Source of the DNA: an uncultured Anaerolineales bacterium
GTDB lineage: Bacteria; Chloroflexota; Anaerolineae; UBA4142
Length of the DNA stretch: 40,780 nucleotides
Direction: 5' to 3'
Assembly (NCBI GenBank): GCA_903825565.1
Contig: CAIKBD010000196.1
Coordinates: 1 to 40,780 of the forward strand
In this document: piece by piece, positions 6,729 to 27,973 of the stretch
Position numbering within the stretch: position 1 is the first letter of the stretch
How the letters are laid out: each line of letters opens with the position of its first letter
Made by a program: the position numbers and the translations under genes
Notes under the pieces: generated by a model
What the model was told of the DNA's origin: nothing
The model's input: only the letters and a program-made list of their open reading frames with translations
Database searches by the model: none

Positions 6729-9161
6729 TCAATTTTTCTTTAGAACGATCAGAAATTCGGATTTCATCCCTTCCGGGTTTTTGTTTTTGCGGCGACCGAA
6801 CAGTTGCCGATTTTTGATCCGATCTTCAAGGACGCGCTGCAACGTCCAACCGCGCTCGCCGAAATACTCCGCGAAAACGCGCCAAGTTGCAACCTCGATG
6901 CCGTCAATTCTGGGATTGCCGACAAAAATGCATGCCGTGCCGCCGCCGCGCAAATAACGCATAGCGTTTTCAAACGCCTGCAGCGTAAAGCCAAAGTACG
7001 CATCTAACAGTGCGCGGAGATCGGGGCGCGTGAGGTTCGCTCGCACTGCGTTGAGTGTGGGCGTCTCGGGCGACAGCGTCGTTTTGCGGTACGGAATTTC
7101 CAGGCGGCTCAACTGTTTGATCTCGGCTTCGGTGTGCCCCAACCAATACAGTTCTAATTTCGAAGTTCGAATATACTCCTGCGCTTGCAAATAGGGCGGT
7201 GAACTGATCAGGCAATCTACCGCTTGGCTCTGCGCGGGTTGCCACGTTGCCGAATCAATGCCGGTGTATGTGACCACTTGGTTGTGGTTGTGCGCGAGGG
7301 TCGCGGCGAGTTGTTGTGCGCGCGTGAGGTTTTCTAACGCGGTCTCGGCAATGAACGCATCCAGTTGGGCGTGCCAGTCTTGTTGCAAGCGTGCGGCAAT
7401 TTCGGCGGCTTTGGTTTTCGACTTGAAGAGTTTGGGGGTTTTGTGCTCGGCATACGAAAATTGTTTGCTCGCTTTGAGCAACGCCGATTCGATGACGAGC
7501 GCATACGGATCGGCTCCCAATTGTTTTTGCCAGCCCCAGTAGCGGCTGAGCGTCTCTAGCATTTGCGGCGGATACCAGTACGCCAAGTTTGACCAGTCGG
7601 GATGGAAGGTCTGTGCGCTGGAGCGCATTTCGGCGAGTTGGCGCTGGAGCGTCGTTGCGTCCAAGTCGGTTCGCCGAAAGCGCATTTTCAAAGCGACGAT
7701 GTGTTGCAAAAGCGGATTGAGGTCGAGCAAGATTGCATTGCGTTCGCACAGTAGCGCTTCCAAGCCGACGGTGCCCGATCCAGCGAACGGATCAATGACC
7801 CAGCCATCGTACGGCGTAAACTCACGAATGCAATACCGCACTACCTGCGGAATGAACTTGGCGGGATAATAAAACAACCCGTGCGTCAAATAATTGGTGT
7901 CGGTGATTTCCGGGATCAGGGCGCGAAAACTAACCGGCTCCGGTTGCCCGGTGATTTCCGCTCGGGGAAAATCTAACAAGGGCGATTGCCGGTAAGTGCC
8001 GCGTGGTTCTGCCAGTGTGGGTGGGGGCGTCGCGCGGGCGCGTTCGTAAATCGCTTTGAGAAAAAGGAGATCGCGAATATATAAGGATTGATCCCCGGGT
8101 GAACGCACCGGCAGACTGTCTTCTTTCCACTCAGTGACAAGCCGCTGCGTAGCCAGATCGATAGACTGGCAAAGTTGAGCGTAAGACTTGAAATCGAAGG
8201 CAAGACCGAGGCGACTGAATTTTTGGTTCAGTAAACGAATATTGGAGACATTACGGAGCGCAAACGTATCAATTTCCAAGCTCGCAAGAGCATAAGCCAC
8301 CCATAGATCGTCCCAACTTTCAATTGTTTGCACAATATCGCGCACAGCGGATGCGGATTGAGAACCATCCGGATCATCCCAATCGAAAACGCTTTGGAGA
8401 ATTTCATCTGTGCCGTATGCCATTTTCAAAGTAATGCGTTTGGCTACGGGGATGCCTTTGCCAATTTGTTCAAATGCTTTGCGGTCGAGCGGCGTATGAT
8501 CTTTGAGCGAGTGATAGATTTTTTCGATGGTGGATTCACGCTGTTGAGCATCCCGTTGATCCCAAACGCAAATCAGATAGAGGATTTTATCTTTCGGCGT
8601 AACCTTGAGCCGAAGTAGCCCGCGCAATAAATCTACTAGCGAACCTTTGGCGGTTGTTCCGCCCGTGTCATCGCGAGAGCGCAATTGCATCACGATCATT
8701 TTGTGCGATTGCGGATTGACGCCCATTACATCAATGTCATTATGCGGAACCGGTTTGCCAAAAGACTTTTCCAAGAGTGGAAGCATCTCTTTTTTTACGC
8801 TATCGGGCACCAGAGAAAATTGGGTATGTTCGCGCAAAATTGTTTTGAAAACTTCTTCCAACACCTTGCCTTGGCGAGCGCGGTAGGAACTGTGAAAAAA
8901 CTGATGAAAAGAGAACATCAGCGAATAATAGCGCGCCGTTGCGTAATCCGGCGCAAGAGTTGCGGTTCGGTTGATTCCGGCGGCAAATTTTTTGATGCTA
9001 TCCAAGGCATCTTCCAACGATTGGAAATCTTCCTCGAACAAACAAGTGACGAGGTCGCGCGCTAGCTCCAAAGGACTGGCTAAAATGCGCTTTGCGGGAA
9101 TCGTTTGGGCGTTGTCGTCTGCTAAAAGGAGAAACGTTCTTGCCTGGTAAATATCATCCAT
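6729..9161 (-). CDS. Large DNA methyltransferase with additional N-terminal (possibly nuclease-like) region
   Basis: A protein of 810 residues. The C-terminal half is an adenine-N6 or cytosine-N4 DNA methyltransferase: a lead-in THGLFYYPAKFIPQVVR at about 426-442, the AdoMet-binding motif I DPFAGSG at 457-463, and the catalytic motif IV SSPPY at 653-657, giving the order I then IV. The N-terminal 350 residues are not a methyltransferase. The stretch HNDIDVMGVNP (141-150) followed by MIVMQLRSRDDTGG (155-168) resembles a PD-(D/E)XK nuclease core with Asp142/Asp144 and a QxR in place of ExK. If correct, this is a one-protein restriction-modification enzyme; otherwise it is an orphan methyltransferase. 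No separate nuclease or specificity gene is nearby. GGAG lies 8 bases before the ATG. It sits between a thioesterase and an aminotransferase gene, an unusual place for an R-M gene. Confidence 0.8.
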   Translation of the reverse strand: MDDIYQARTFLLLADDNAQTIPAKRILASPLELARDLVTCLFEEDFQSLEDALDSIKKFAAGINRTATLAPDYATARYYSLMFSFHQFFHSSYRARQGKVLEEVFKTILREHTQFSLVPDSVKKEMLPLLEKSFGKPVPHNDIDVMGVNPQSHKMIVMQLRSRDDTGGTTAKGSLVDLLRGLLRLKVTPKDKILYLICVWDQRDAQQRESTIEKIYHSLKDHTPLDRKAFEQIGKGIPVAKRITLKMAYGTDEILQSVFDWDDPDGSQSASAVRDIVQTIESWDDLWVAYALASLEIDTFALRNVSNIRLLNQKFSRLGLAFDFKSYAQLCQSIDLATQRLVTEWKEDSLPVRSPGDQSLYIRDLLFLKAIYERARATPPPTLAEPRGTYRQSPLLDFPRAEITGQPEPVSFRALIPEITDTNYLTHGLFYYPAKFIPQVVRYCIREFTPYDGWVIDPFAGSGTVGLEALLCERNAILLDLNPLLQHIVALKMRFRRTDLDATTLQRQLAEMRSSAQTFHPDWSNLAYWYPPQMLETLSRYWGWQKQLGADPYALVIESALLKASKQFSYAEHKTPKLFKSKTKAAEIAARLQQDWHAQLDAFIAETALENLTRAQQLAATLAHNHNQVVTYTGIDSATWQPAQSQAVDCLISSPPYLQAQEYIRTSKLELYWLGHTEAEIKQLSRLEIPYRKTTLSPETPTLNAVRANLTRPDLRALLDAYFGFTLQAFENAMRYLRGGGTACIFVGNPRIDGIEVATWRVFAEYFGERGWTLQRVLEDRIKNRQLFGRRKNKNPEGMKSEFLIVLKKN

Positions 9162-10385: not shown

Positions 10386-12101
10386 TTTGTTCGGTCGGGT
10401 GAGTCTGTCCCAGCCATCGCGGATTTTTTGCAGATTGCCGAGGACGGTGAGCACAAACGCGAGCGCGCTGACGAGCGAGATGCCGATGGAGATAATAAAG
10501 CCAGAATAAAAATCCACCCGAAAGGTGAGCGGGATGGTGTGCGTGGGCATCGCGCGATTCGCCGGTTGCACGATCAATTCGACGCGCCGTTCCTCCGTGC
10601 GCGGATTGAACGGATTGTACGGAATGACGCCAGCGCCATGTTGATTCAGCGTGATCGCAAAACGTTCCTGGCTTGCCGGGGGTTTGAGTTCGCGCCGCGC
10701 GGCACCCTCGAGCGAAATGTCGTCCGCCTGATCCTTGTTCAACGTGATCATGAGCGGCTCGCTGAATTTTTCGACTTCGACGCGAACTTGAGTCGGTGTG
10801 TCGGCATTAGCGCGCAGAATTGGATCGTAGCGCACGATAGCCGTCGCGCCGAATGCGGACAGTTCCGCGCGCGTGTTGATCGAGCGCGATGTCAGGAGAA
10901 TATCGGTGGCGTAAACGTAGAGAAACGGAAGGTTAACGAGCAACGTCACCAGTGCGATCAAGAGCAGGGAGACGCGCCACAAGGGAAACCGGCGCGGCGG
11001 GGTGATTTGCGGTGGTTCCGCCGGAATGTCAAACACATCCTGCAATGCGGCGAGGTAGATAGCATTCCGAACGACACACTGCGACTCGACTTCGCGGATC
11101 AATCCCAACATTTCCAATTTCACCGTGGCTTTGGTGTGCCGATTAAAGTTGACGGGTTTGCCGATGACGATGTCGCGGAGCGTTGCCTGAATCGTTGCGT
11201 CGGTATGCTCTTGCGCTTGGCGCAAGATGCGTTCGACGTGCCCGTCGTTGCGGAGAATTTCGGCGGCAGTTTGGTCAACCACTTTGGCGGTGATGGTGTG
11301 GGGATGGGTCTGCTCAATTACCTGGCACATTTTTTGCGTGAGGTACGGATGCCCGGCAGTATGATCGAAATTCAGTTGGGCAGTTTCACGCGGCGCGGCG
11401 ATGTTGAGCCGCGCAAAATTGGCGACGAGCGTTTGGACGCCGGCAACGTCAAAATCTTTGAGGTAGATGCGGTCGGTGATATTGTGGAGCGGCGAGTTGC
11501 GATCTTCCGCCGCGAGCCGTTGCAGTTCGTGCGCGCCGCTCAACACGAACAAGTATTTTTCAAACGCGGCGTCTTCTTCTTTGCGGCGGCTGGAAAAGAC
11601 ATGGCGGATTGTGCCGAAGAACGGCGTCGCCACGCTTTCGCGGATTGTTTCGACTTCGTCCAGCAAAATCACGATGCGCGGTGTTTGGGCTTGCCGCGCC
11701 ACGTCGAACAGGAATTGGCGAAAGGTGATCGAGTTGGTGGGGCGAATGAGGTCTTTGGGGACGGTGCCGCGCGGAAAGATCGGCGCGAGCTCGGTTCGCA
11801 TTTCGCTGGCGATGAACGCGTAGAGTTGATCCTCCGGCTGATTGTCCAGCAACGTGAGATCGATCAACGCGACGCCGATGCCGTATTGCCGCAGGCGCGC
11901 GCGCATTTGGTACAGCAGTGTAGTCTTGCCGGTTTGGCGTGAACCGAGCAATGCCAGGTACGCGTCAATCGTGTTGGCGCGTGCCACGCGCACCAGGCGT
12001 TCCAATTCGGGGCGAGCGACATGGATGGCGCTGTCGTTCACCGGGTCAAGGGGTCCCCACGTCTTGAAAAGCGAGTGTTCGGTCGAGTCGGGCAGGGTCA
12101 T
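10383..12101 (-). CDS. Membrane-anchored P-loop ATPase (AAA/STAND-like) with external beta-rich domain
   Basis: A protein of 572 residues. The N-terminal ATPase has Walker A GSRQTGKT at 53-60 and Walker B RIVILLDEVE at 142-151, in the arrangement of AAA-like/STAND NTPases. Residues about 290-365 look like a winged-helix region. A transmembrane helix follows at about 375-397 (LLLIALVTLLVNLPFLYVY), then about 135 residues predicted outside the cell and beta-rich, then a second helix at about 534-557, leaving a short cytosolic end. Its ATG overlaps the stop of the preceding propeller-ATPase gene by 4 bases (ATGA), so the two are translationally coupled and probably made in fixed ratio. I recognise no effector domain. 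Role is inferred to be a membrane signalling or complex-forming partner of the first ATPase. Confidence 0.8.
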   Translation of the reverse strand: MTLPDSTEHSLFKTWGPLDPVNDSAIHVARPELERLVRVARANTIDAYLALLGSRQTGKTTLLYQMRARLRQYGIGVALIDLTLLDNQPEDQLYAFIASEMRTELAPIFPRGTVPKDLIRPTNSITFRQFLFDVARQAQTPRIVILLDEVETIRESVATPFFGTIRHVFSSRRKEEDAAFEKYLFVLSGAHELQRLAAEDRNSPLHNITDRIYLKDFDVAGVQTLVANFARLNIAAPRETAQLNFDHTAGHPYLTQKMCQVIEQTHPHTITAKVVDQTAAEILRNDGHVERILRQAQEHTDATIQATLRDIVIGKPVNFNRHTKATVKLEMLGLIREVESQCVVRNAIYLAALQDVFDIPAEPPQITPPRRFPLWRVSLLLIALVTLLVNLPFLYVYATDILLTSRSINTRAELSAFGATAIVRYDPILRANADTPTQVRVEVEKFSEPLMITLNKDQADDISLEGAARRELKPPASQERFAITLNQHGAGVIPYNPFNPRTEERRVELIVQPANRAMPTHTIPLTFRVDFYSGFIISIGISLVSALAFVLTVLGNLQKIRDGWDRLTRPNK

Positions 12102-15100
12102 GGGGTCGCTCCCTGGGCGCTACGAATTTCTTGAGTGAAACTTCCGACCAGCCCGACGACATCTTGGCTACGCCGCAACACTTCGGGGAAGGCGTGCGCG
12201 GCGAAGGTGTACTTGGGTCCGTCGCGGCGTAAGATCGAGTAAAGGGTCAGTCCTTCAAAAGCGGCTTCCAGTTGTGCGGGCGGCACCGCGAGGTTGCGCG
12301 CGCGCAAGAGGTCGGCGATTTCGGGTTGGGTGACGGCAGGATGTTCCAACATCAATAACGTGATCAACCGTTCGAGTGGGGTGGCGTTGCCCCAGGAAAT
12401 TTCGACAAAGTATTCGGCGAATTGCGCCGAGCGCGCAATCGAATCAATATCGGCGCGCGTGATGATGCGTTCGCGGCGATGATTGATGCGCTCGATCAAT
12501 TGTTGACAGATGTATTGCACCAGGTTCGGGTGCTCCGCAGCAAGTTCAACCGTTTGATCGGCGAGATCGTTGCCTTCCTCCAAGGTGATGCCCATTTCTT
12601 GCATCGGGTCAATGACCACGCGGCGGGCTTCTTCTTTGGAGAGATAGGTCAGCGGGATCAAATTGCAGAAATTGAAAAAGACGAGTTGCGGATTATGCAG
12701 CGCGGCGTTGAGCACTTTTTCGCCACAAAACACAAAGCGCACCGGCAATTCTTGCGCGAGCGCACGAATAATCCGAAAGAGCGGTTCGCCGTTTTTAATG
12801 TCATAGTTCAGCAAGCTGTCAATTTCATCGAAGAGCATGACGATGGTGCGCGAGGGATATTGCGCGGGCAAGTCGGTGATGAGCCGGCGAAATGCTTCGG
12901 GGGTCGGCGTCGCCAGCGGCATTTTCCACATCGTGTCAATTGTTTCGAATAGCTCTTCGTGCGTGAGCACCGCTTGGCAGTCGAGATAAAACGGTTGATA
13001 TTCGGGCGCATCTTGCAACAGTTGGAACACGCGCGAGAGCACCGATGTTTTGCCGATTTTACGTCCGCCTACGATGGCAAAGTTGGTGTCGCGCACGGTG
13101 CGAACTATTGTTTTCAGTTCATGCTCGCGGCCAAAGAACATGTTGGTGGGCACGGGCCCGCTGGTGACGTATGGCGAGACAACGGTCAGATCAACCTGGC
13201 TCAAGATAATTTCGACGAGACGGCGTGCATGATCCCGGGCGTCCAGCAAATTACGAATGTTGCTACCATCCAACACGATAAAGTCGTGCGCGGCTTCGCG
13301 CACCAAGTGTTTGAACGATTGGCGCGGGTCTTTGGGCGGCGCATCGCGCAGATCAATGATCAGCGCAAAGTAGCTGACCATATTCAGCACGCCCATCAAA
13401 TCGCGCAGGGCTTCGAGATCGCTTTCTTGCGCTTGCCGGCGCGGCACAAAGATGATGGGAAAGCGCGGTGGAATTTTTAGTCGCAATGCCGGCGCGCGCA
13501 CGACGTATCCGATCAACCCTTTGTACGTGCGCTCGTCAATGCGGGTAAAGCCGAGCAACGAACAGAGTTGATCCACCATTTGACCGGTGACGGACTTGAA
13601 CGCTTCTTCGTTGCCGACCTCTTCCCAAGCGGCTTTCCAATGGCTGAGAAATTTTTGCGCGGTGATGAAATTATCCTGGCGCAAAACGGGTGGTACGGTT
13701 TGCAAATTCAACGCATCGGTAGGATGCACGGTGACGTAATATTGCAACGCGCGTGCTAGGTTGCGGCGCGGCATTTTGTGAAGCGTGCTACTGTTCGCTT
13801 CGCCGCTCGTGCGCAATGCCAAAGTGATTGCGTTTTCCCATTGTGCCCACTCTTGCTGCCATGCACGCGCTTTGGCGGCAGGACTGAATCGGGTGCGCCA
13901 TAGACCTGCGCCCACGCTAAATACAAGCAGGAGTGTCACCCCGCCCAGCGCGATGGCGGTGAGCCATTCGCTCGGTACGGTACTGCGAAACGAATCTGCG
14001 CCGCGCAACGCGCCATTGCCGTTGGTGCCGGCGAACACCGTTTCGGGGTTTTGCGGGTCAATGGCGATGGCTTGCACTTCGACATTCAGCGCCAAGCCGG
14101 TTTTGGCGGTAACCCAAGTTGCGCCGCTGTCGTCGCTGCGATAGATGCCGCGATCCGTGCCCGCGTACAGAATATTGGATGCGCTTGGGTTGAATGTGAG
14201 CGCGTACAACCGTTCCCGCGCCGGAAACGTGGCGCGTCCCAGGGCTTGCCATTTTTCGCCGGCATCGTCACTGCGATAGACGCCGTTGGAGACATAACCT
14301 ACCACCACCGTCTTTGGCGTGTGCGGATCGAAGAGCACCGCACGCACTTCATCGGCGGGCAATTGCGTGGATGCGTTTTGCCACGTGGCGTTGGGCGTAG
14401 CGCTGTTGAGCAGGTACAAACCGCGATCTGTTCCGGCATACAAGGTGTTGGGCGGCGCAAGGGTCAAGACATTTACGCGCGCGGAACTGCCCAAACCGTT
14501 GGTCTGCGGCGTCCACTTTTGTCCGCCATCCGTGCTCATGTACAACCCGTTGCCCCAGGTGCCGACGTACAACGCCGTGCGATTGTCCGCGTCGCGCACA
14601 ATCGCAAGACTGCCCAGCGGCGCATTCGCGGCGAGGTTTTCGACGAGGCGTGTGAAATTTGCGCCGCTATCCTGCGACACGAACAGCGAACTGCCCCAAC
14701 TGCCGGCGTAGACAGTGGCGGGGTTTTGCGGATCGGTGGTGAGCGAGGTGATGCGTGGATCGGGCACGCCGTTGACCTCGACCCAGGTTGCGCCGTGATC
14801 GGGACTGCGGAACAAACCGAAACTGGTGGCGGCGAGCAAAGCGCTGGGATTGCCGGCGGCGATGGCGAGTTGGTTGACGTTTGTGTTAATCAACCCTGTA
14901 TTGAGCGGCGTCCAGTTTTGACCCTCGTCCGTCGTTTTCCAAATCCCTTGGACGGTCGCCGCATACAATGTATTGGTGTTGCCCAATGCCAGCGAAACGA
15001 TAGACAGATTACCGAGCGATTTGGGAAGCAAGCCCCATGCGCCGCCGCCGTCGGTCGAGCGCACAATGCCTTGCGGGAGCACGGCAAAGAGCCGATCGGG

Positions 15101-15880
15101 TTGCTGAGCGTTGTTGATCAGCGGTCGGGCTTGCGCCGTGCTCGTGCCACTGCCGAGGAGACTCCACGTTTTGCCGTCACGATTGCGATACAGTCCTTGT
15201 GCTGTGCCAACGATCAGCCCGGTTTTGGTGACGACGATAGATTGCGGGCGCGCGCTTTCCGGCAATCCATCCGACATGGCTTGCCAACGCGCGCCGCGAT
15301 CCTTGGTTGCATATACGCCGCCATCCGTCGCCGCATACAACGTGCTGTCGCTTGCCAGCGCGAGGGCAGAGACGCGGACCGACTTGAGCTCCATCCCGAT
15401 GTCATTCCAGGTCTCGCCGTTGTTGTCACTCCGCAATACGGTGAGTGCTGTGCCGGCGTAAATCACTTGCGGGGTTTGCGGATCGATCAAGAATGTGTAA
15501 ACGAATTGGTTGGCGAACCGTTGATCGGCGGGAGCCCAACTTGTGCCGGCGTCGCGTGTGCGATAGATCCCATCGCGGGTGCCGGCAAAAGCCGTGTCGG
15601 GGTCGCGTGTCACTGCCAGCGCGTAAATCGTCGGATTGTCCGGCAAGCCCTTGGAAGTTGCCGTCCAGTGTGCGCCTTCATCGCGCGTGATAAACACCGC
15701 GTTATTCGAGCCGGCGTACAAGGTCAGGGGATTACTCGGCGCAATGGCGATCACGTTGATCAAGCCGCCTGGCGGGCCGCCGGTGGTTGTCCACTGGATA
15801 CCATTTTCTGCATAGGCAATGGCGACAGAGATGAGGAGTAGAGCGATGACCAAGCCAAATGTCGAGCGACGGAGTAGCAC
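12098..15880 (-). CDS. Transmembrane protein: external beta-propeller (BNR/YCF48-like repeats) fused to a cytosolic AAA/STAND ATPase
   Basis: A protein of 1260 residues with an unusual layout. After a signal-anchor (FGLVIALLLISVAIAYA, about residues 8-25) come some twelve or more repeats up to residue 630, each with the pattern LYAGT..GIY(R/K)S.D.G.TW. These are the Asp-box motifs of BNR/sortilin/YCF48-type propellers and would form one or two extracellular propellers. A transmembrane helix follows at about 640-662. The cytosolic half has an uncharacterised region (665-900), the box MFFGREHEL, Walker A GGRKIGKTS at 938-946, Walker B IVMLFDEID at 1013-1021 and a C-terminal winged-helix-like region. 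GTG 15880 is chosen because GGAGG lies 6 bases upstream and the signal peptide starts there; a longer ATG start at 16000 would place the promoter inside the gene. Coupled to the second ATPase by ATGA. Confidence 0.85.
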   Translation of the reverse strand: MLLRRSTFGLVIALLLISVAIAYAENGIQWTTTGGPPGGLINVIAIAPSNPLTLYAGSNNAVFITRDEGAHWTATSKGLPDNPTIYALAVTRDPDTAFAGTRDGIYRTRDAGTSWAPADQRFANQFVYTFLIDPQTPQVIYAGTALTVLRSDNNGETWNDIGMELKSVRVSALALASDSTLYAATDGGVYATKDRGARWQAMSDGLPESARPQSIVVTKTGLIVGTAQGLYRNRDGKTWSLLGSGTSTAQARPLINNAQQPDRLFAVLPQGIVRSTDGGGAWGLLPKSLGNLSIVSLALGNTNTLYAATVQGIWKTTDEGQNWTPLNTGLINTNVNQLAIAAGNPSALLAATSFGLFRSPDHGATWVEVNGVPDPRITSLTTDPQNPATVYAGSWGSSLFVSQDSGANFTRLVENLAANAPLGSLAIVRDADNRTALYVGTWGNGLYMSTDGGQKWTPQTNGLGSSARVNVLTLAPPNTLYAGTDRGLYLLNSATPNATWQNASTQLPADEVRAVLFDPHTPKTVVVGYVSNGVYRSDDAGEKWQALGRATFPARERLYALTFNPSASNILYAGTDRGIYRSDDSGATWVTAKTGLALNVEVQAIAIDPQNPETVFAGTNGNGALRGADSFRSTVPSEWLTAIALGGVTLLLVFSVGAGLWRTRFSPAAKARAWQQEWAQWENAITLALRTSGEANSSTLHKMPRRNLARALQYYVTVHPTDALNLQTVPPVLRQDNFITAQKFLSHWKAAWEEVGNEEAFKSVTGQMVDQLCSLLGFTRIDERTYKGLIGYVVRAPALRLKIPPRFPIIFVPRRQAQESDLEALRDLMGVLNMVSYFALIIDLRDAPPKDPRQSFKHLVREAAHDFIVLDGSNIRNLLDARDHARRLVEIILSQVDLTVVSPYVTSGPVPTNMFFGREHELKTIVRTVRDTNFAIVGGRKIGKTSVLSRVFQLLQDAPEYQPFYLDCQAVLTHEELFETIDTMWKMPLATPTPEAFRRLITDLPAQYPSRTIVMLFDEIDSLLNYDIKNGEPLFRIIRALAQELPVRFVFCGEKVLNAALHNPQLVFFNFCNLIPLTYLSKEEARRVVIDPMQEMGITLEEGNDLADQTVELAAEHPNLVQYICQQLIERINHRRERIITRADIDSIARSAQFAEYFVEISWGNATPLERLITLLMLEHPAVTQPEIADLLRARNLAVPPAQLEAAFEGLTLYSILRRDGPKYTFAAHAFPEVLRRSQDVVGLVGSFTQEIRSAQGATP

Positions 15881-15919
15881 AGCAATCCTCCACAGAGTGG
15901 GAATACCAGGGTTGAATTT

Positions 15920-15948
15920 ATTATACCCTACTTGGCGCGCAATGTAAA
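15920..15948 (-). promoter_or_regulatory. Promoter for the propeller-ATPase operon
   Basis: On the minus strand: TTTACA (15948-15943), 17-base spacer, perfect TATAAT (15925-15920). The predicted leader is about 33 bases and contains GGAGG before the GTG start. This strongly supports the shorter start. Confidence 0.8.
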
Positions 15949-15971
15949 AAAAGGAATGGGCATGATGCCGC

Positions 15972-17237
15972 TCATTTGCCGAACCAGCCGGGAAATACAC
16001 TCGTTGCCACCAAAATCACCGTGAGGAAAATCAGCGCAATGATCATTGCCCATGCCAGCGCATTAAAGATGCGTCCGTTGACATACTTGCCCATCAAGCG
16101 CGGGTCGTTGATCAATTTGAGCATCGTGATCAAAATGACCGGTAACAATACGCCGTTGAGCGTTTGACTCGCGAGCATTGCTTCGATCAACGACGGAATC
16201 GGCAACAAGATGATCGCCGCGCCCACGACGATCAGCGCGGTGTACACCGAGAAAAACACCGGCGCATCTTTCCAATCGCGGCTAACCCCCATTTCCCAGC
16301 CGAACGCCTCGCACACGACGTAGGCCGTCGAGAGCGGCAAGATCGCGGCGGAGAACACCGAGGCGTTGAGCAAGCCGAGCGCGAACAAACTCGCCGCATA
16401 CTCGCCCGCTAACGGCTTGAGCGCGAGCGCGGCGTCCTCTGCCGTTTTGATGTTGACGCCCGCGGCGAACAAGGTTGCGGCGCACGCAATCGTAATAAAC
16501 CCGGCGACGATCACGGCAAACACCGAACCTACGATCACATCGAGCCGTTCATAACCCAGTTCGTCTACCTTCAAGCCCTTGTCCACGATGGATGCCTGCT
16601 GATAAAATTGCATCCAGGGCGCAATCGTCGTGCCGATGATCGTGACAAAGATTGTGACGTAGCCGGCGTCGAAATGAAAACTGGGTGTGACGACCGCTTG
16701 GAGCACCTTGCCCCACGGCGGATTGGCGATCACGCCGGACAAGACATACGAAAAATAGATCGCGCTGGCGACGAGAAAGATGCGCTCGACCGATTTGTAA
16801 CTCGCCTTGACGATCAACAGCCACACGCCGAACGCAACGAGCGGCACCGAGAGGTACTTGCTCACGCCGAAAATTTCCATACTCGCGGCGACGCCGGCAA
16901 ATTCGCTGACAGTGTTGGCGAGGTTGGCGACCACCATCAACGCAATGATCGCTGCCGTCGCGCGCACGCCGAAACTCTCGCGGATCAGATCTGCCAAGCC
17001 CTTGCCGGTCACGATGCCGAGCCGCGCGCTCATTTCTTGCACGATGATCAGCGCCAGCGCGACGAGCGTCAGCATCCACAAGAGCGAATAGCCATAGTGC
17101 GCGCCCGCCACCGAATACGTGGTGATGCCGCCCGCATCGTTATCTACATTCGCCGTAATGATCCCCGGTCCGATCACCGACAGCATCAAGAGCAACCGGG
17201 TGCGCCAGGGTTTGGATTTTCGCAATGTCATCGTCAT
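15972..17237 (-). CDS. Nramp-family transporter, magnesium-type (NRMT-like)
   Basis: A protein of 421 residues with about eleven hydrophobic helices and the Nramp fold signatures, but with altered metal-site residues. The helix-1 motif that is DPGN in manganese/iron transporters reads DAGG at 34-37. The helix-6 motif that is (A)xxMPH reads TTIAPW at 203-208, so the metal-binding Met is Ala206 and the His is Trp208. Loss of the soft Met ligand with retention of the Asp is the pattern reported for Nramp-related magnesium transporters. It would import a divalent cation, probably Mg2+. The downstream ATG at 17237 is chosen because GGAGG lies 6 bases before it. It follows the PRC/MgtE_N/CBS gene by 71 bases, and MgtE domains sense Mg2+, which supports this reading. 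Annotation as mntH would be misleading. Confidence 0.85.
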   Translation of the reverse strand: MTMTLRKSKPWRTRLLLMLSVIGPGIITANVDNDAGGITTYSVAGAHYGYSLLWMLTLVALALIIVQEMSARLGIVTGKGLADLIRESFGVRATAAIIALMVVANLANTVSEFAGVAASMEIFGVSKYLSVPLVAFGVWLLIVKASYKSVERIFLVASAIYFSYVLSGVIANPPWGKVLQAVVTPSFHFDAGYVTIFVTIIGTTIAPWMQFYQQASIVDKGLKVDELGYERLDVIVGSVFAVIVAGFITIACAATLFAAGVNIKTAEDAALALKPLAGEYAASLFALGLLNASVFSAAILPLSTAYVVCEAFGWEMGVSRDWKDAPVFFSVYTALIVVGAAIILLPIPSLIEAMLASQTLNGVLLPVILITMLKLINDPRLMGKYVNGRIFNALAWAMIIALIFLTVILVATSVFPGWFGK

Positions 17238-17308
17238 GGGTCGCCTCCGCAAGCCGATCCGACGCGCGCCATGCCGCGCCAGGTTTCGCGTTGAACCGGG
17301 AGTTGGGT

Positions 17309-18565
17309 CTAGAACAAGCGCGGCATTTGAATTTTCAGATCGTCCGGCAAAATCAAATCGAGCGCGTCGTCCGCCGTGATAATGCCTTGCAAATGATTGT
17401 CGTCGTCCACGACCGGCACGGCGAGCAAATTGTATTTAGCGATCAATTCGAGCACGTCTTCCGGCGATGCGTCCAGTCGCACGCGCACGGCTTTGTGGTG
17501 CATAATCGAATCCACCGCCATGTCCGGTGCGGCAAGCACGAGGTCGCTCAACGAGAATACGCCGAGCAAGTGTTCGTCCGCGTCAACGACATAGACATAG
17601 TAGATGGTTTCGGCTTCTTTTGCGCCGGCTTCGCGCCGAATACATTCGAGCGCCTGCGCGACGGTGACGTTGAGCGGCACGGTGAGATACTTGGTCGTCA
17701 TCAAGCCGCCGGCGGTGTTTTCGGGATGTTCGAGCAGTTCGGCGACTTGGGCGCTTTCCTCCGGTTCCATCAAATTGAACACTTGGGCGCGGCGATCTTC
17801 TTCCATTTCTTGCAGGACATCTGCCGCTTCGTCCGGCTCCATTTCCTCCACGATGTCCGCCGCGCGTTCGTTCGGCAACGTCTCCAACACTTCGGCTTGA
17901 AATTCCGGCTCCAACTCTTCCATCACGTCTGCCGCTTGCTCGTCGGACATTTCGCGGATCAATTCGCCGGCTTGGCGTGGACTCATATCTTCCAAAATTT
18001 CGGCAATGTCCGCCGGGTGCAACTCGCGCAGTTTGGTGCGCGCGACGCGCACCTTGAGATCGCCGCGCGGGACGAGTTCGAGATCGTTAAACCGGATGGC
18101 GCGGGAAGGGAGTTCGCGGCGCAGGGTTTCCGCCACGCGCTCAAAGGTGTCTTCCCAACCCAGGCGGCGGAGCAAGCCGCGCGCGCCAATATCTACATTG
18201 ACGAGGCGATAGTCCGCGCCGATCTTGGCGAGTTCGAGATCGTTGACGCGTACGACGCGAAAGCCGTGAATGTCAATCACTTGTTTATCCATCACGTCGC
18301 GGTTCAAAAAAACTTCATTGCCGGTTGCGGGGTACGGCGTAGTCGCCGGTTTTTGCAAAATGATCTTATTGCCGGCAAGGTCTTCGTTGCCGCCCCAGGG
18401 CACCAGCGCCGGGTCCTTCCCGCCGCGTTTCACAGCCAGCGCGACGATGCGCGGGTATGGATCGTTGTTCACCTCGGAGACAATCAACACATCTGCCAGG
18501 GTGCCGACGAGTGCGCCTTTGGCGTCGCGCACATCTCTGCCTAACAATTCGCTGAGGTATGCCAT
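17309..18565 (-). CDS. Soluble PRC-barrel / MgtE N-terminal / tandem CBS protein (Mg2+ sensor-type)
   Basis: A protein of 418 residues with no transmembrane helix. Residues 1-70 and about 85-165 look like PRC-barrel-type domains (LLGRDVRDAKGALVGTLADV, then DIHGFRVVRVNDLEL). Residues 182-285 are the acidic helical repeats of the MgtE N domain (LHPADIAEILEDM, DEQAADVMEEL, NERAADIVEEM, DEAADVLQEM). Residues 286-418 are two CBS domains (GGLMTTKYLTVPLNVTVAQAL; VDSIMHHKAVRVRLDAS). This is the cytosolic Mg2+-sensing half of an MgtE channel without the channel. Its neighbour is an Nramp-like transporter with a magnesium-type site, so it may gate that transporter. Start at 18565 chosen for GAGGAGG 8 bases upstream. 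Whether it binds Mg2+ or a nucleotide cannot be read from sequence. Confidence 0.85.
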   Translation of the reverse strand: MAYLSELLGRDVRDAKGALVGTLADVLIVSEVNNDPYPRIVALAVKRGGKDPALVPWGGNEDLAGNKIILQKPATTPYPATGNEVFLNRDVMDKQVIDIHGFRVVRVNDLELAKIGADYRLVNVDIGARGLLRRLGWEDTFERVAETLRRELPSRAIRFNDLELVPRGDLKVRVARTKLRELHPADIAEILEDMSPRQAGELIREMSDEQAADVMEELEPEFQAEVLETLPNERAADIVEEMEPDEAADVLQEMEEDRRAQVFNLMEPEESAQVAELLEHPENTAGGLMTTKYLTVPLNVTVAQALECIRREAGAKEAETIYYVYVVDADEHLLGVFSLSDLVLAAPDMAVDSIMHHKAVRVRLDASPEDVLELIAKYNLLAVPVVDDDNHLQGIITADDALDLILPDDLKIQMPRLF

Positions 18566-18670
18566 TCGGCGTTCCTCCTCACGGGGATCGGGAATCACGA
18601 GAGCCGGTTGAGCTGCGTGCGGTTCTCGGCACGCGTCGTTATAGCACGGTTGCGTTTGGGCGTCAACCGC

Positions 18671-18735
18671 AAAAAAATCCGGTCGCGCCAGCGGCGGACC
18701 GGATTTTTCTAGTAGGGACGTTTGTCAAAACGTCC
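18671..18735. terminator. Terminator plus second small hairpin
   Basis: A stem AAATCCGGTC (18675-18684) / GACCGGATTT (18697-18706) is flanked by an A-run and a T-run, usable by the minus-strand SDR gene. It is followed by a hairpin GGACGTTT / AAACGTCC (18716-18735) and two degenerate echoes of CAAAACGT up to about 18770. No gene is seen in 18566-18775. Confidence 0.7.
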
Positions 18736-18775
18736 ATCTTTCAAAACGTTCGTCGGTCAAAACATTCCCGGCTGA

Positions 18776-24769: not shown

Positions 24770-27700
24770 ATGGCACACGCATCTGCGCGTCCGTCAATTC
24801 TGTTCACGCTCCAATTGTTTGGCGCGTTTCACCTCAGTGCCGGCGGTGAAACGATTCGCTTGCCGCGCCGCAAAGTCGAAGCGTTGCTCGCGTACCTCGT
24901 CGTACGCTCTGTACCCCAAGGGCACACGCGCGAACAACTCGCCGCGCTCTTTTGGGGTGATACCTCCGACGACCAAGCGCGCACGTCATTGCGAACTAGT
25001 CTCGCCGTGCTCCGCAAAACCCTGGGGAGTGATGCCATCCTCGCCGACCGCGAACGCGTCGAACTCAATCCCAATTTCCCGTTGCGTGTGGACGTGCTCG
25101 AATTTTTGCAGGCGTGCTCGACTGCGCCTGAACGCGCTGTCGAATTGTATTGTGGCGATCTCTTGCCCGAACTGTATGACGATTGGGTCTTGGCGGAGCG
25201 CGAACGTCTGCGCGATCGGTATATCAAAACGCTCTTGCGCTTGACACAACAGATGCGCTCACACAGCGAATACGAGCGTGCGATCCACTATGCGCGCCTA
25301 GTTCTTGCCAGCGAACCCGCAAACGAAACGGCTCACCAGCATTTAATGTTTTGCGAAATGGCGCGCGGTAACCGGCTTGCCGCGCTGGATCAATACGAAG
25401 CGTGTGCTCGTGCTCTCCGCGATGAACTTGCGGTTGAACCATCGCCGGAGACCCAGGCGCTTTCACATTGGATCAAACAAACGCCCACGCTCACCTCATC
25501 CGACGCCGCGCGCATCACCAACTTACCCGTTCCGCATACTTCGTTTGTGGGGCGCAAACCGGAACTGGGTCAAGTCAAGGCATTGTTTCTGGGTTCGCGA
25601 CTCTTGACGCTGACCGGCGCAGGCGGAAGCGGCAAGACGCGCCTCGCGATCCAAATGGCAATGGATTTGTTGAGCGGATTCCGCGATGGCGTGTGGATTG
25701 TCGAACTTGCCAGCATTGTCAACCCGACGCTTGTGGCACAATCCGTTGCCAAAACGTTAGGTATCAGCGAAAAACCCAGGCAGACCCAAACCGAAGCGAT
25801 CCTGACCGCGTTACGCGGCAAGCAATTGATCTTGATCCTCGACAACTGCGAACATCTCACCGCTACGTGCGCCGAACTTGCGGATGCGATCCTAAGTAAC
25901 GAGGCGTGCGGCAACGTCAAAATTTTGGCGACGAGCCGCGAGCCGCTTGCCATTGCCGGCGAAAGTGTGTGGCACGTTCCCACACTCACCGTGCCTCCGT
26001 TCGCGCCCACTCGCGAGCAATTGATGCTCACATACGAAAGTGTGCAACTGTTTGTCGAGCGTGCGCGTGCGGTGAATGCGCGTTTTGAATTAACGGCGGA
26101 CAATCTTAACGCGGTCACGCAAATTTGCCGCCGTCTCGACGGCATCCCACTTGCGATTGAACTGGCGGCAGCGCGCACCGCCGTGCTCTCCGCGCAAGAG
26201 ATCGCGGCGCGACTCGATGATCGTTTCAGTTTGCTGACCGGCGGCAACCGCACTGCGTTGCCGCGCCAACAAACGTTGCGCGCGCTCGTGGATTGGAGTT
26301 ACGAGTTGCTTTCTCCCACCGAGCGCACGTTGTTTTGCCGGCTCGCCGTTTTCAGCGGCGGGCGCACGTTGCCTGCCATCGAAACCGTGTGCGCGTTCGG
26401 TTCGCTTGCCCGATCCCAGATTCTCGATTTGGTTGCCCGCTTGGTTGCCAAATCCTTACTCGTGCGCGAGCAGGCGACGAGCGACGGCGAAACGCGCTAT
26501 GGGTTTCTCGACACGATCAAACAATATGCGTGCGAAAAATTAGAACAATCGGGGCAAGCCGATGAGGTGCGCCAGCATCATCTCGACTATTTTTTGCAAT
26601 GGGCGGAACAGATTGCTCCAGAGTTGAATGGCGCGCGTCAGATTGCCATGTTACAACTTGTCGAACGCGAACACGCCAACTTGCGCGTGGCACTGCGTTT
26701 TGCGATGGAGCGCCAACAGCACGAATATGCCTTGCGCTTGGGCAACGCGTTGAGCGAGTTTTGGGATGTGCGTGGTTATTTAACCGAGGGGCGCGAAGTC
26801 TTGCGGCGAATGCTCGAAGCCAGCCGCCCAACATTCGAACACACGCTAGTGGGCGAGTTTGGGGCGTGTTATGGTTGGGCGCAGGTGAATGCGGCGACGC
26901 TCGCCGCGAAACAAGGCGACCTGGAAGCGGCAATCCAACTGGCGGAGACAAGCCGCGCTCTCTTCGACGAACTCGGCGACGAGCCGGGCATTGTCACCGT
27001 ACTTAATCTGCTCGGCAGTATCGCGCGAATGCAAAGCGCGTGGGCATTAGCGCGCGAACGATTTGAAGAGTGTATTTCACGTGCGCGCGCTTTGCGAGAC
27101 AAGCGGCATTTGGCGACTGCGCTACGCAACTTGGGAATCATCACCGAATCATTGGGGAATTATGCTCAAGCCCGTCAGTGGTACGAGGAAAGTCTGCAAC
27201 TGAGCCGCGAATCGGATGATTCGCGCGCGATTGCCACAACTTTGAATAACCTGGGAAACATTGCACAACAACAAGGCGATTACGCCACCGCGCGCGTATT
27301 GTACGATCAGGTGCTCGCCGTTTATCGTGCGGCGGGTGCAGTCTGGAGCGTTGCCGCCACTCTGACCAACTTGGGTAATCTCGCCCATTCCCAAGCCGAC
27401 TATACCGCCGCGCGCGAATTTCACGAGGAGGGCTTGCGAATCATGCGCGCGATTGGCGACAAGCGCGGGATCGCCGTGGTGTTGAACAACTTGGGGAACG
27501 CCACGCTTGCCCTGGGCGATTTTCCCGCCGCGCGCAAATTGCACGAAGAAGGTTTGCGGTTGCGGCGTGAGTTGAATGATCGGCGGGGAATTGCGATGGT
27601 GCTGAGCAACCTGGGCGATGTTGCCGCCGGGGCGGCGCAATATGCAGAGGCGCAACGATTTTACGCCGAAGGGTTGGTGGGCTTGCGCGAATTGGGCGAC

Positions 27701-27973
27701 AAACGCACGATTGCCAACTGCTTGATCGGCGTCGCTCAAATTACGGCGCAAACGTACCACCCCCAGCACGCCGCCCAACTCGCCGGCGGCATCCACGCAA
27801 TTTTGGCAACGCTCGACGCGCAGATTGACGCGCGCGAACGCGGACGGTACGAGCACGCGCAACAACTTGCGCGTGAGCAACTCGGCGCGGCGGAGTACGC
27901 CAACGCATGGGCGCAGGGTGTTGCGCTGACGCCGGAGCAAACCATTGCGCTGGCAATTGGCGGCGCACCGTAA
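24770..27973 (+). CDS. BTAD/NB-ARC/TPR transcriptional regulator (SARP/AfsR-like)
   Basis: A protein of 1067 residues. Residues 10-105 form an OmpR-type winged helix (LQLFGAFHLSAGGETIRLPRRK, TSLRTSLAVLRKTLG) and 108-235 the bacterial transcriptional activation domain (BTAD). Residues 255-600 hold an NB-ARC/STAND ATPase with the P-loop GAGGSGKT at 283-290, LILDNCEHL as Walker B, and GIPLAIELAAARTAVLS. Residues about 640-1000 are tetratricopeptide repeats, several of them nearly identical in pattern (LNNLGNIAQQQGDYATAR; LNNLGNATLALGDFPAARKL). Such proteins sense a ligand or partner through the TPRs, switch with nucleotide and activate promoters. The large SARP class is common in Chloroflexota and Actinobacteria. 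No obvious biosynthetic target cluster lies nearby. A GGTGA motif precedes the ATG. Confidence 0.93.
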   Translation: MAHASARPSILFTLQLFGAFHLSAGGETIRLPRRKVEALLAYLVVRSVPQGHTREQLAALFWGDTSDDQARTSLRTSLAVLRKTLGSDAILADRERVELNPNFPLRVDVLEFLQACSTAPERAVELYCGDLLPELYDDWVLAERERLRDRYIKTLLRLTQQMRSHSEYERAIHYARLVLASEPANETAHQHLMFCEMARGNRLAALDQYEACARALRDELAVEPSPETQALSHWIKQTPTLTSSDAARITNLPVPHTSFVGRKPELGQVKALFLGSRLLTLTGAGGSGKTRLAIQMAMDLLSGFRDGVWIVELASIVNPTLVAQSVAKTLGISEKPRQTQTEAILTALRGKQLILILDNCEHLTATCAELADAILSNEACGNVKILATSREPLAIAGESVWHVPTLTVPPFAPTREQLMLTYESVQLFVERARAVNARFELTADNLNAVTQICRRLDGIPLAIELAAARTAVLSAQEIAARLDDRFSLLTGGNRTALPRQQTLRALVDWSYELLSPTERTLFCRLAVFSGGRTLPAIETVCAFGSLARSQILDLVARLVAKSLLVREQATSDGETRYGFLDTIKQYACEKLEQSGQADEVRQHHLDYFLQWAEQIAPELNGARQIAMLQLVEREHANLRVALRFAMERQQHEYALRLGNALSEFWDVRGYLTEGREVLRRMLEASRPTFEHTLVGEFGACYGWAQVNAATLAAKQGDLEAAIQLAETSRALFDELGDEPGIVTVLNLLGSIARMQSAWALARERFEECISRARALRDKRHLATALRNLGIITESLGNYAQARQWYEESLQLSRESDDSRAIATTLNNLGNIAQQQGDYATARVLYDQVLAVYRAAGAVWSVAATLTNLGNLAHSQADYTAAREFHEEGLRIMRAIGDKRGIAVVLNNLGNATLALGDFPAARKLHEEGLRLRRELNDRRGIAMVLSNLGDVAAGAAQYAEAQRFYAEGLVGLRELGDKRTIANCLIGVAQITAQTYHPQHAAQLAGGIHAILATLDAQIDARERGRYEHAQQLAREQLGAAEYANAWAQGVALTPEQTIALAIGGAP

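Follow-up and report, generated by a model that had tools for sequence, protein, structure and literature searches.

An NRMT-type Nramp gene paired with a channel-less MgtE-type sensor gene in an uncultured Anaerolineales bacterium

Introduction

Can the magnesium sensor of one transport family control a carrier of an unrelated family? The question is raised by a gene pair on the minus strand of an uncultured Anaerolineales genome, in which a gene for a soluble, MgtE-like, sensor-like protein (18565-17309) is followed by an Nramp gene (17237-15972). Positions are those of the window, the whole stretch of 40,780 nucleotides that was analysed.

A fragment resembling MgtE was described beside most NrmT genes by Shin et al. 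(2014, PLoS Genet, PMC4072509). These authors speculated that the fragment might take part in cytoplasmic feedback regulation or affect metal chaperone activity, and they noted its co-transcription with NrmT under M-boxes, which are present only in a subset of the NrmT-fragment operons. In the same study, co-expression of the A. capsulatum pair, fragment with NrmT, did not improve Mg2+ rescue; this NrmT behaved as a Mn2+ transporter, giving full rescue of a Mn2+-transport mutant and partial rescue of a Mg2+ mutant, and the C. acetobutylicum NrmTs work without the fragment (PMC4072509). Our literature search, with most subscription journals outside its coverage, found no later paper testing the fragment.

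The published pairs (the Ca_c0685 operon of C. acetobutylicum and Acp2976/2977 of A. capsulatum) consist of the same genes in the usual order, fragment then NrmT, and the feedback role proposed for them is the one proposed here. The window pair is a Chloroflexota example of this published NrmT and MgtE-fragment pair, and the idea of gating across families is not new, as it appears in Shin et al. (2014, PMC4072509). The window pair belongs to a Chloroflexota genome and, unlike the M-box subset of those operons, is without an M-box. Its soluble protein contains a PRC module, of which the excerpted parts of that paper (PMC4072509) yielded no mention. The present analysis adds counts that show how specific the pairing is, a reading of the sensor residue by residue, the finding that the second PRC-like half is conserved, and the absence of a riboswitch at the locus.

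Gene layout

The sensor-like gene starts with an ATG at 18565 and stops at 17309, and the Nramp gene, on the same strand, starts with an ATG at 17237 and stops at 15972, leaving an intergenic gap of 71 bp from the sensor stop to the Nramp ATG. Sequences resembling ribosome-binding sites precede both ATGs, GAGGAGG in the case of the sensor-like gene. The earlier note, made from the sequence alone, had described a soluble PRC/MgtE_N/CBS protein preceding an Nramp protein; its coordinates and features were confirmed. The features of the locus are as follows.

17309..18565, minus strand: soluble sensor-like protein, 418 aa (Pfam, PDB matches, AlphaFold, Foldseek)
15972..17237, minus strand: NRMT (Nramp-related magnesium transporter), 421 aa, site DAGG / TTIAPW (Pfam, EleNRMT match)
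18638..18666, minus strand: likely promoter of the pair, TTGACG - 17 nt - TATAAC (found by eye)
18671..18710, minus strand: hairpin and T run, likely terminator of the upstream reductase gene (sequence, RNA fold)

The carrier

The window carrier matches the Nramp family (PF01566, 7e-98; Pfam). Its best solved relative is EleNRMT (7qia, E=4e-117, 46% identity), the remaining Nramps matching at 1e-27 or weaker and MntH at about 1e-19, and its MntH profile score of 146 bits falls below the cut-off of 430. The site reads DAGG in place of DPGN, the M-P-H of helix 6 has become A-P-W, and Thr occupies the first of the helix-6 ligand positions. The published NRMT signature comprises DxxG in helix 1 and TxxA/T in helix 6, replacing DxxN and AxxM (Ramanadane et al. 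2022, PMC8806188); the window carrier has D39-G42 and T208-A211 at these places. W213 replaces the first helix-6 His of the proton path, as in EleNRMT, and no later His occurs in the helix. At the metal site, the two proteins have identical residues (D, G, T, A, W, Q).

Given the gap in scores to EleNRMT, the same site letters and the DxxG/TxxA signature, the window carrier is, as judged from its sequence, a member of the NRMT (magnesium-type) group, distinct from MntH. The substitutions listed in the earlier note (DAGG for DPGN, Ala and Trp for the helix-6 Met and His) proved correct when the residues were re-read, and its designation of the site as magnesium-type is consistent with the signature and the EleNRMT match. 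EleNRMT transports Mg2+ and Mn2+, not Ca2+, without proton coupling (PMC8806188). It was studied alone, and a term search of PMC8806188 gave no MgtE-like partner, whereas the window carrier has one next door.

Architecture of the soluble protein

Pfam places a PRC domain at residues 2-73, MgtE_N at 182-283 (PF03448, 4e-28) and a CBS pair at 284-405 (PF00571, 5e-21), with a second PRC-like half plus helices at about 84-165. In other proteins, PRC modules serve as adaptors. The MgtE channel domain (PF01769) was not detected in the protein by Pfam: it ends at about the position of the MgtE plug helix, a short tail replacing plug helix and channel, and its top 19-residue hydropathy of 1.64 does not suggest a membrane span. 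A PDB search aligned residues 166-405 with the cytosolic domain of T. thermophilus MgtE (2yvx/2yvy), with the N domain and CBS pair matching throughout. The AlphaFold model (pLDDT 89.8), compared by Foldseek with the Mg2+-bound MgtE cytosolic domain 2yvy, gave an rmsd of 2.3 and a TMt of 0.86. In contrast to T. thermophilus MgtE, the window protein has no channel domain and no plug helix, carries an added PRC module and has changed residues at plug-facing and ATP-stacking positions.

The possibility that the sensor-like gene is a broken MgtE was rejected, as 60 aligned relatives have kept this architecture without a channel.

Conservation and specificity of the pairing

NRMT genes and channel-less MgtE sensor halves are paired in a conserved and specific manner. 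A fragment was found next to or near the NRMT gene in 72 of the 80 NRMT loci fetched from several phyla, a sample biased to the closest relatives, and this recurrence argues against chance. The exceptions include four contig ends and three loci (L051, L054 and L077) with no fragment within about 4 kb. No single open frame containing both sensor and carrier was found among the fetched loci.

We also surveyed 251 Chloroflexota genomes, taking low-scoring Nramps as NRMT-type; all counts are among the matches listed. An MgtE_N gene lay within 3 kb of 48 of the 71 NRMT-type Nramps versus 1 of the 79 MntH-type Nramps, and in this sole MntH-type case an NRMT lies between the two genes. With that MntH set aside, the inspected Nramps near a fragment all carry Thr at the first helix-6 position and lack Met, and DxxG is present in nearly all of them. 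The co-occurrence on which the earlier note had made its idea depend was thus found in both surveys.

Seen from the sensor, the 86 top-scoring Chloroflexota MgtE_N genes listed comprise 12 full MgtE channels and 74 channel-less genes, 55 of which adjoin an NRMT-type Nramp. Among the other channel-less genes listed, 17 that were inspected had no Nramp within about 2.6 kb, and ten of these genomes have an unlinked NRMT-type gene elsewhere. Beside three channel-less fragments without a linked Nramp, no alternative transporter partner was found; their neighbours were CTP synthase, ketoacyl synthase, phosphoglucose isomerase, DUF5722 and others without a match. NRMTs with a DGTSY site mostly lack a linked fragment (5 near, 10 none).

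The latter form a Chloroflexota subgroup (L087, L090-L092, L094 and L096) whose helix-6 positions are occupied by Ser and Tyr and in which NRMT and a channel-less MgtE fragment share genomes, unlinked.

Conservation of sensor residues

Site conservation was counted over 75 fragment sequences, with MgtE site lists taken from published papers. The channel-closing Mg2+ sites of MgtE that were compared are E59, D91, D95, D226, D247, D250, E258 and D259; of these, E59 (as D), D91, D95, D247 and D250 are kept in the window protein. In the fragment alignment, D95 (Mg6) is retained in 71 of 71 sequences, although its conservation could be structural, and the Mg4 residue D91 in 54 of 71; the Mg7 position is acidic (D/E) in 60 of 72. 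At the Mg5 position D226, just 17 of 74 fragments have Asp, and the window protein has Asn. Adenine-stacking F227 is mostly Leu across the fragments, as in the window protein, R187 is Ser in the latter, and E258 and D259 fall within the plug helix that it lacks. The alignment suggests that the N-domain sensing face has been kept and that channel-facing and nucleotide contacts have loosened. With plug-facing sites degraded or missing, the MgtE plug mechanism could not be copied as it stands, and a gating route would have to differ.

Columns conserved at 90% or above number 10 of 51 in the second PRC-like half (aa 88-138), compared with 6 of 102 in MgtE_N. Many of the most conserved residues lie in this half (D93, R106-V107-N108-D109, D125 and R133-R134), and its high conservation makes it a candidate docking surface.

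Degraded plug-facing Mg sites would also suit a soluble protein that is another kind of partner, such as a Mg2+ buffer or chaperone, an assembly factor, or a nucleotide sensor adjusting the abundance or placement of NRMT, and so would the adaptor role of PRC modules elsewhere. A metal chaperone role was named as an alternative by Shin et al. (PMC4072509). We consider a partner of this kind unlikely, given that the soluble protein keeps both the acidic sites of its N domain and the N-CBS fold seen in the Mg2+-bound MgtE sensor.

Riboswitches and genome context

An M-box Mg2+ riboswitch lies directly upstream of the pair or cluster in 12 of the 53 relative loci scanned and before a lone NRMT in two more (L051 and L054), and the Mn2+ riboswitch (yybP-ykoY) was found in none of the 53. 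M-boxes before the pair in relatives, including the closest one, together with the lack of Mn2+ riboswitches, strengthen the link of the pair to Mg2+.

That closest relative, L004, has an NRMT 83% identical to that of the window and the gene order reductase, M-box, sensor, NRMT. Its M-box and terminator (L004:2028-2195) lie between the same flanking genes as window positions 18566-18775. No M-box or other riboswitch was found in the window at gathering or relaxed thresholds; the promoter-like TTGACG-17-TATAAC leaves a leader of about 65 nt, and an M-box needs about 168 nt. The consensus scan, requiring T as the final -10 base, did not score this promoter-like sequence, and the terminator-like hairpin (18671..18710) is missing from the list of the simple terminator scan. 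The RNA fold z for the whole intergenic stretch upstream of the pair is -4.3. The RNA-level Mg2+ control of L004 is missing at the window locus, where the protein sensor is kept.

Two other arrangements were seen. L051 and L054 have RNA control without a protein sensor, no MgtE fragment occurring within 4 kb. In L009 (1212-5248), a cluster of NRMT, MgtE fragment and NRMT lies behind an M-box (645-811), the first NRMT being much more divergent from the window NRMT than the second.

Elsewhere, the window genome encodes one CorA and a separate canonical MntH with a DtxR/MntR-like regulator gene beside it. No MgtE channel domain (PF01769) was found in the whole draft genome, an absence that is not final at 93% completeness. 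This MntH shares the Nramp family (PF01566) with the window NRMT but differs from it in having DPGN and MPH, a DtxR-like regulator as neighbour and no MgtE_N neighbour.

The physiological metal of the pair might instead be Mn2+, imported by the NRMT and answered by the MgtE-like protein. Such a role would accord with the published results for the A. capsulatum NrmT, which has an adjacent fragment and no riboswitch and gave full rescue of the Mn2+ mutant and partial rescue of the Mg2+ mutant (PMC4072509), and with EleNRMT, which has the same site and also moves Mn2+ (PMC8806188). It appears quite improbable in a genome that already has a canonical MntH beside a DtxR/MntR-like regulator gene, with the closest syntenic relative under an M-box and no yybP-ykoY in the 53 loci.

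A possible mechanism

We regard it as fairly probable that the pair forms an operon of two genes that serves to import magnesium and to control this import through a detached MgtE-type sensor. Like EleNRMT, the NRMT carrier would work without proton coupling, importing Mg2+ and perhaps Mn2+. The soluble protein would be an MgtE-type cytosolic N/CBS sensor that has been separated from its channel and extended by an N-terminal PRC module; most likely it would dock on or near the carrier, damping import at high cytosolic Mg2+. Since the plug-facing sites are lost and the second PRC-like half is rich in the most conserved residues, this half, not a plug helix, may carry the signal. We infer the physical contact, the binding of Mg2+ by the sensor, the sign of control and the gating of the carrier by the sensor.

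This explanation is supported by the EleNRMT match, the signature, the pairing counts, the M-boxes, the kept N-domain sites and the fit of the model, and also by the separate MntH and the lack of a detected MgtE channel domain in the window genome. Counted against it are the A. capsulatum co-expression null and the function of the C. acetobutylicum NrmTs without the fragment, as well as the changes of D226 to Asn, F227 to Leu and R187 to Ser, the lack of an M-box in the window and the mostly unlinked DGTSY subgroup. Inherited linkage without joint function is very hard to credit: the genes could be neighbours by descent, and the two proteins have correlated distance matrices (r 0.56, which we do not take as proof of joint function because common descent alone could give the same), but the pair is found again in Chloroflexi, Deltaproteobacteria, Firmicutes, Omnitrophota and Nitrospirae, in some cases with the genes convergent, and the MntH-type Nramps listed for the same phylum lack it.

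More tentatively, magnesium import under a detached sensor may take a specific form, in which an Nramp carrier is gated in trans by the sensor of an unrelated channel family, a PRC-like module replaces the plug helix as the coupling, and Mg2+ feedback has moved between unrelated folds. Should the sensor indeed gate the carrier, a single Mg2+-sensing module would serve two unrelated transport folds, and NRMTs examined as lone proteins would have been examined without their regulator.

Other genes of the window

Three further genes of the window were recorded. A 1300-aa open frame (12098-16000, minus strand) overlaps the NRMT stop and encodes a BNR/Sortilin-type beta-propeller and, after it, a STAND/AAA-type NTPase; the real start of the frame is probably further downstream. 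An 810-aa protein (6729-9161, minus strand) has a central DNA methylase domain (N6_N4_Mtase), and a 1067-aa protein (24770-27973, plus strand) has BTAD, NB-ARC and TPR regions, resembling a SARP-like regulator.
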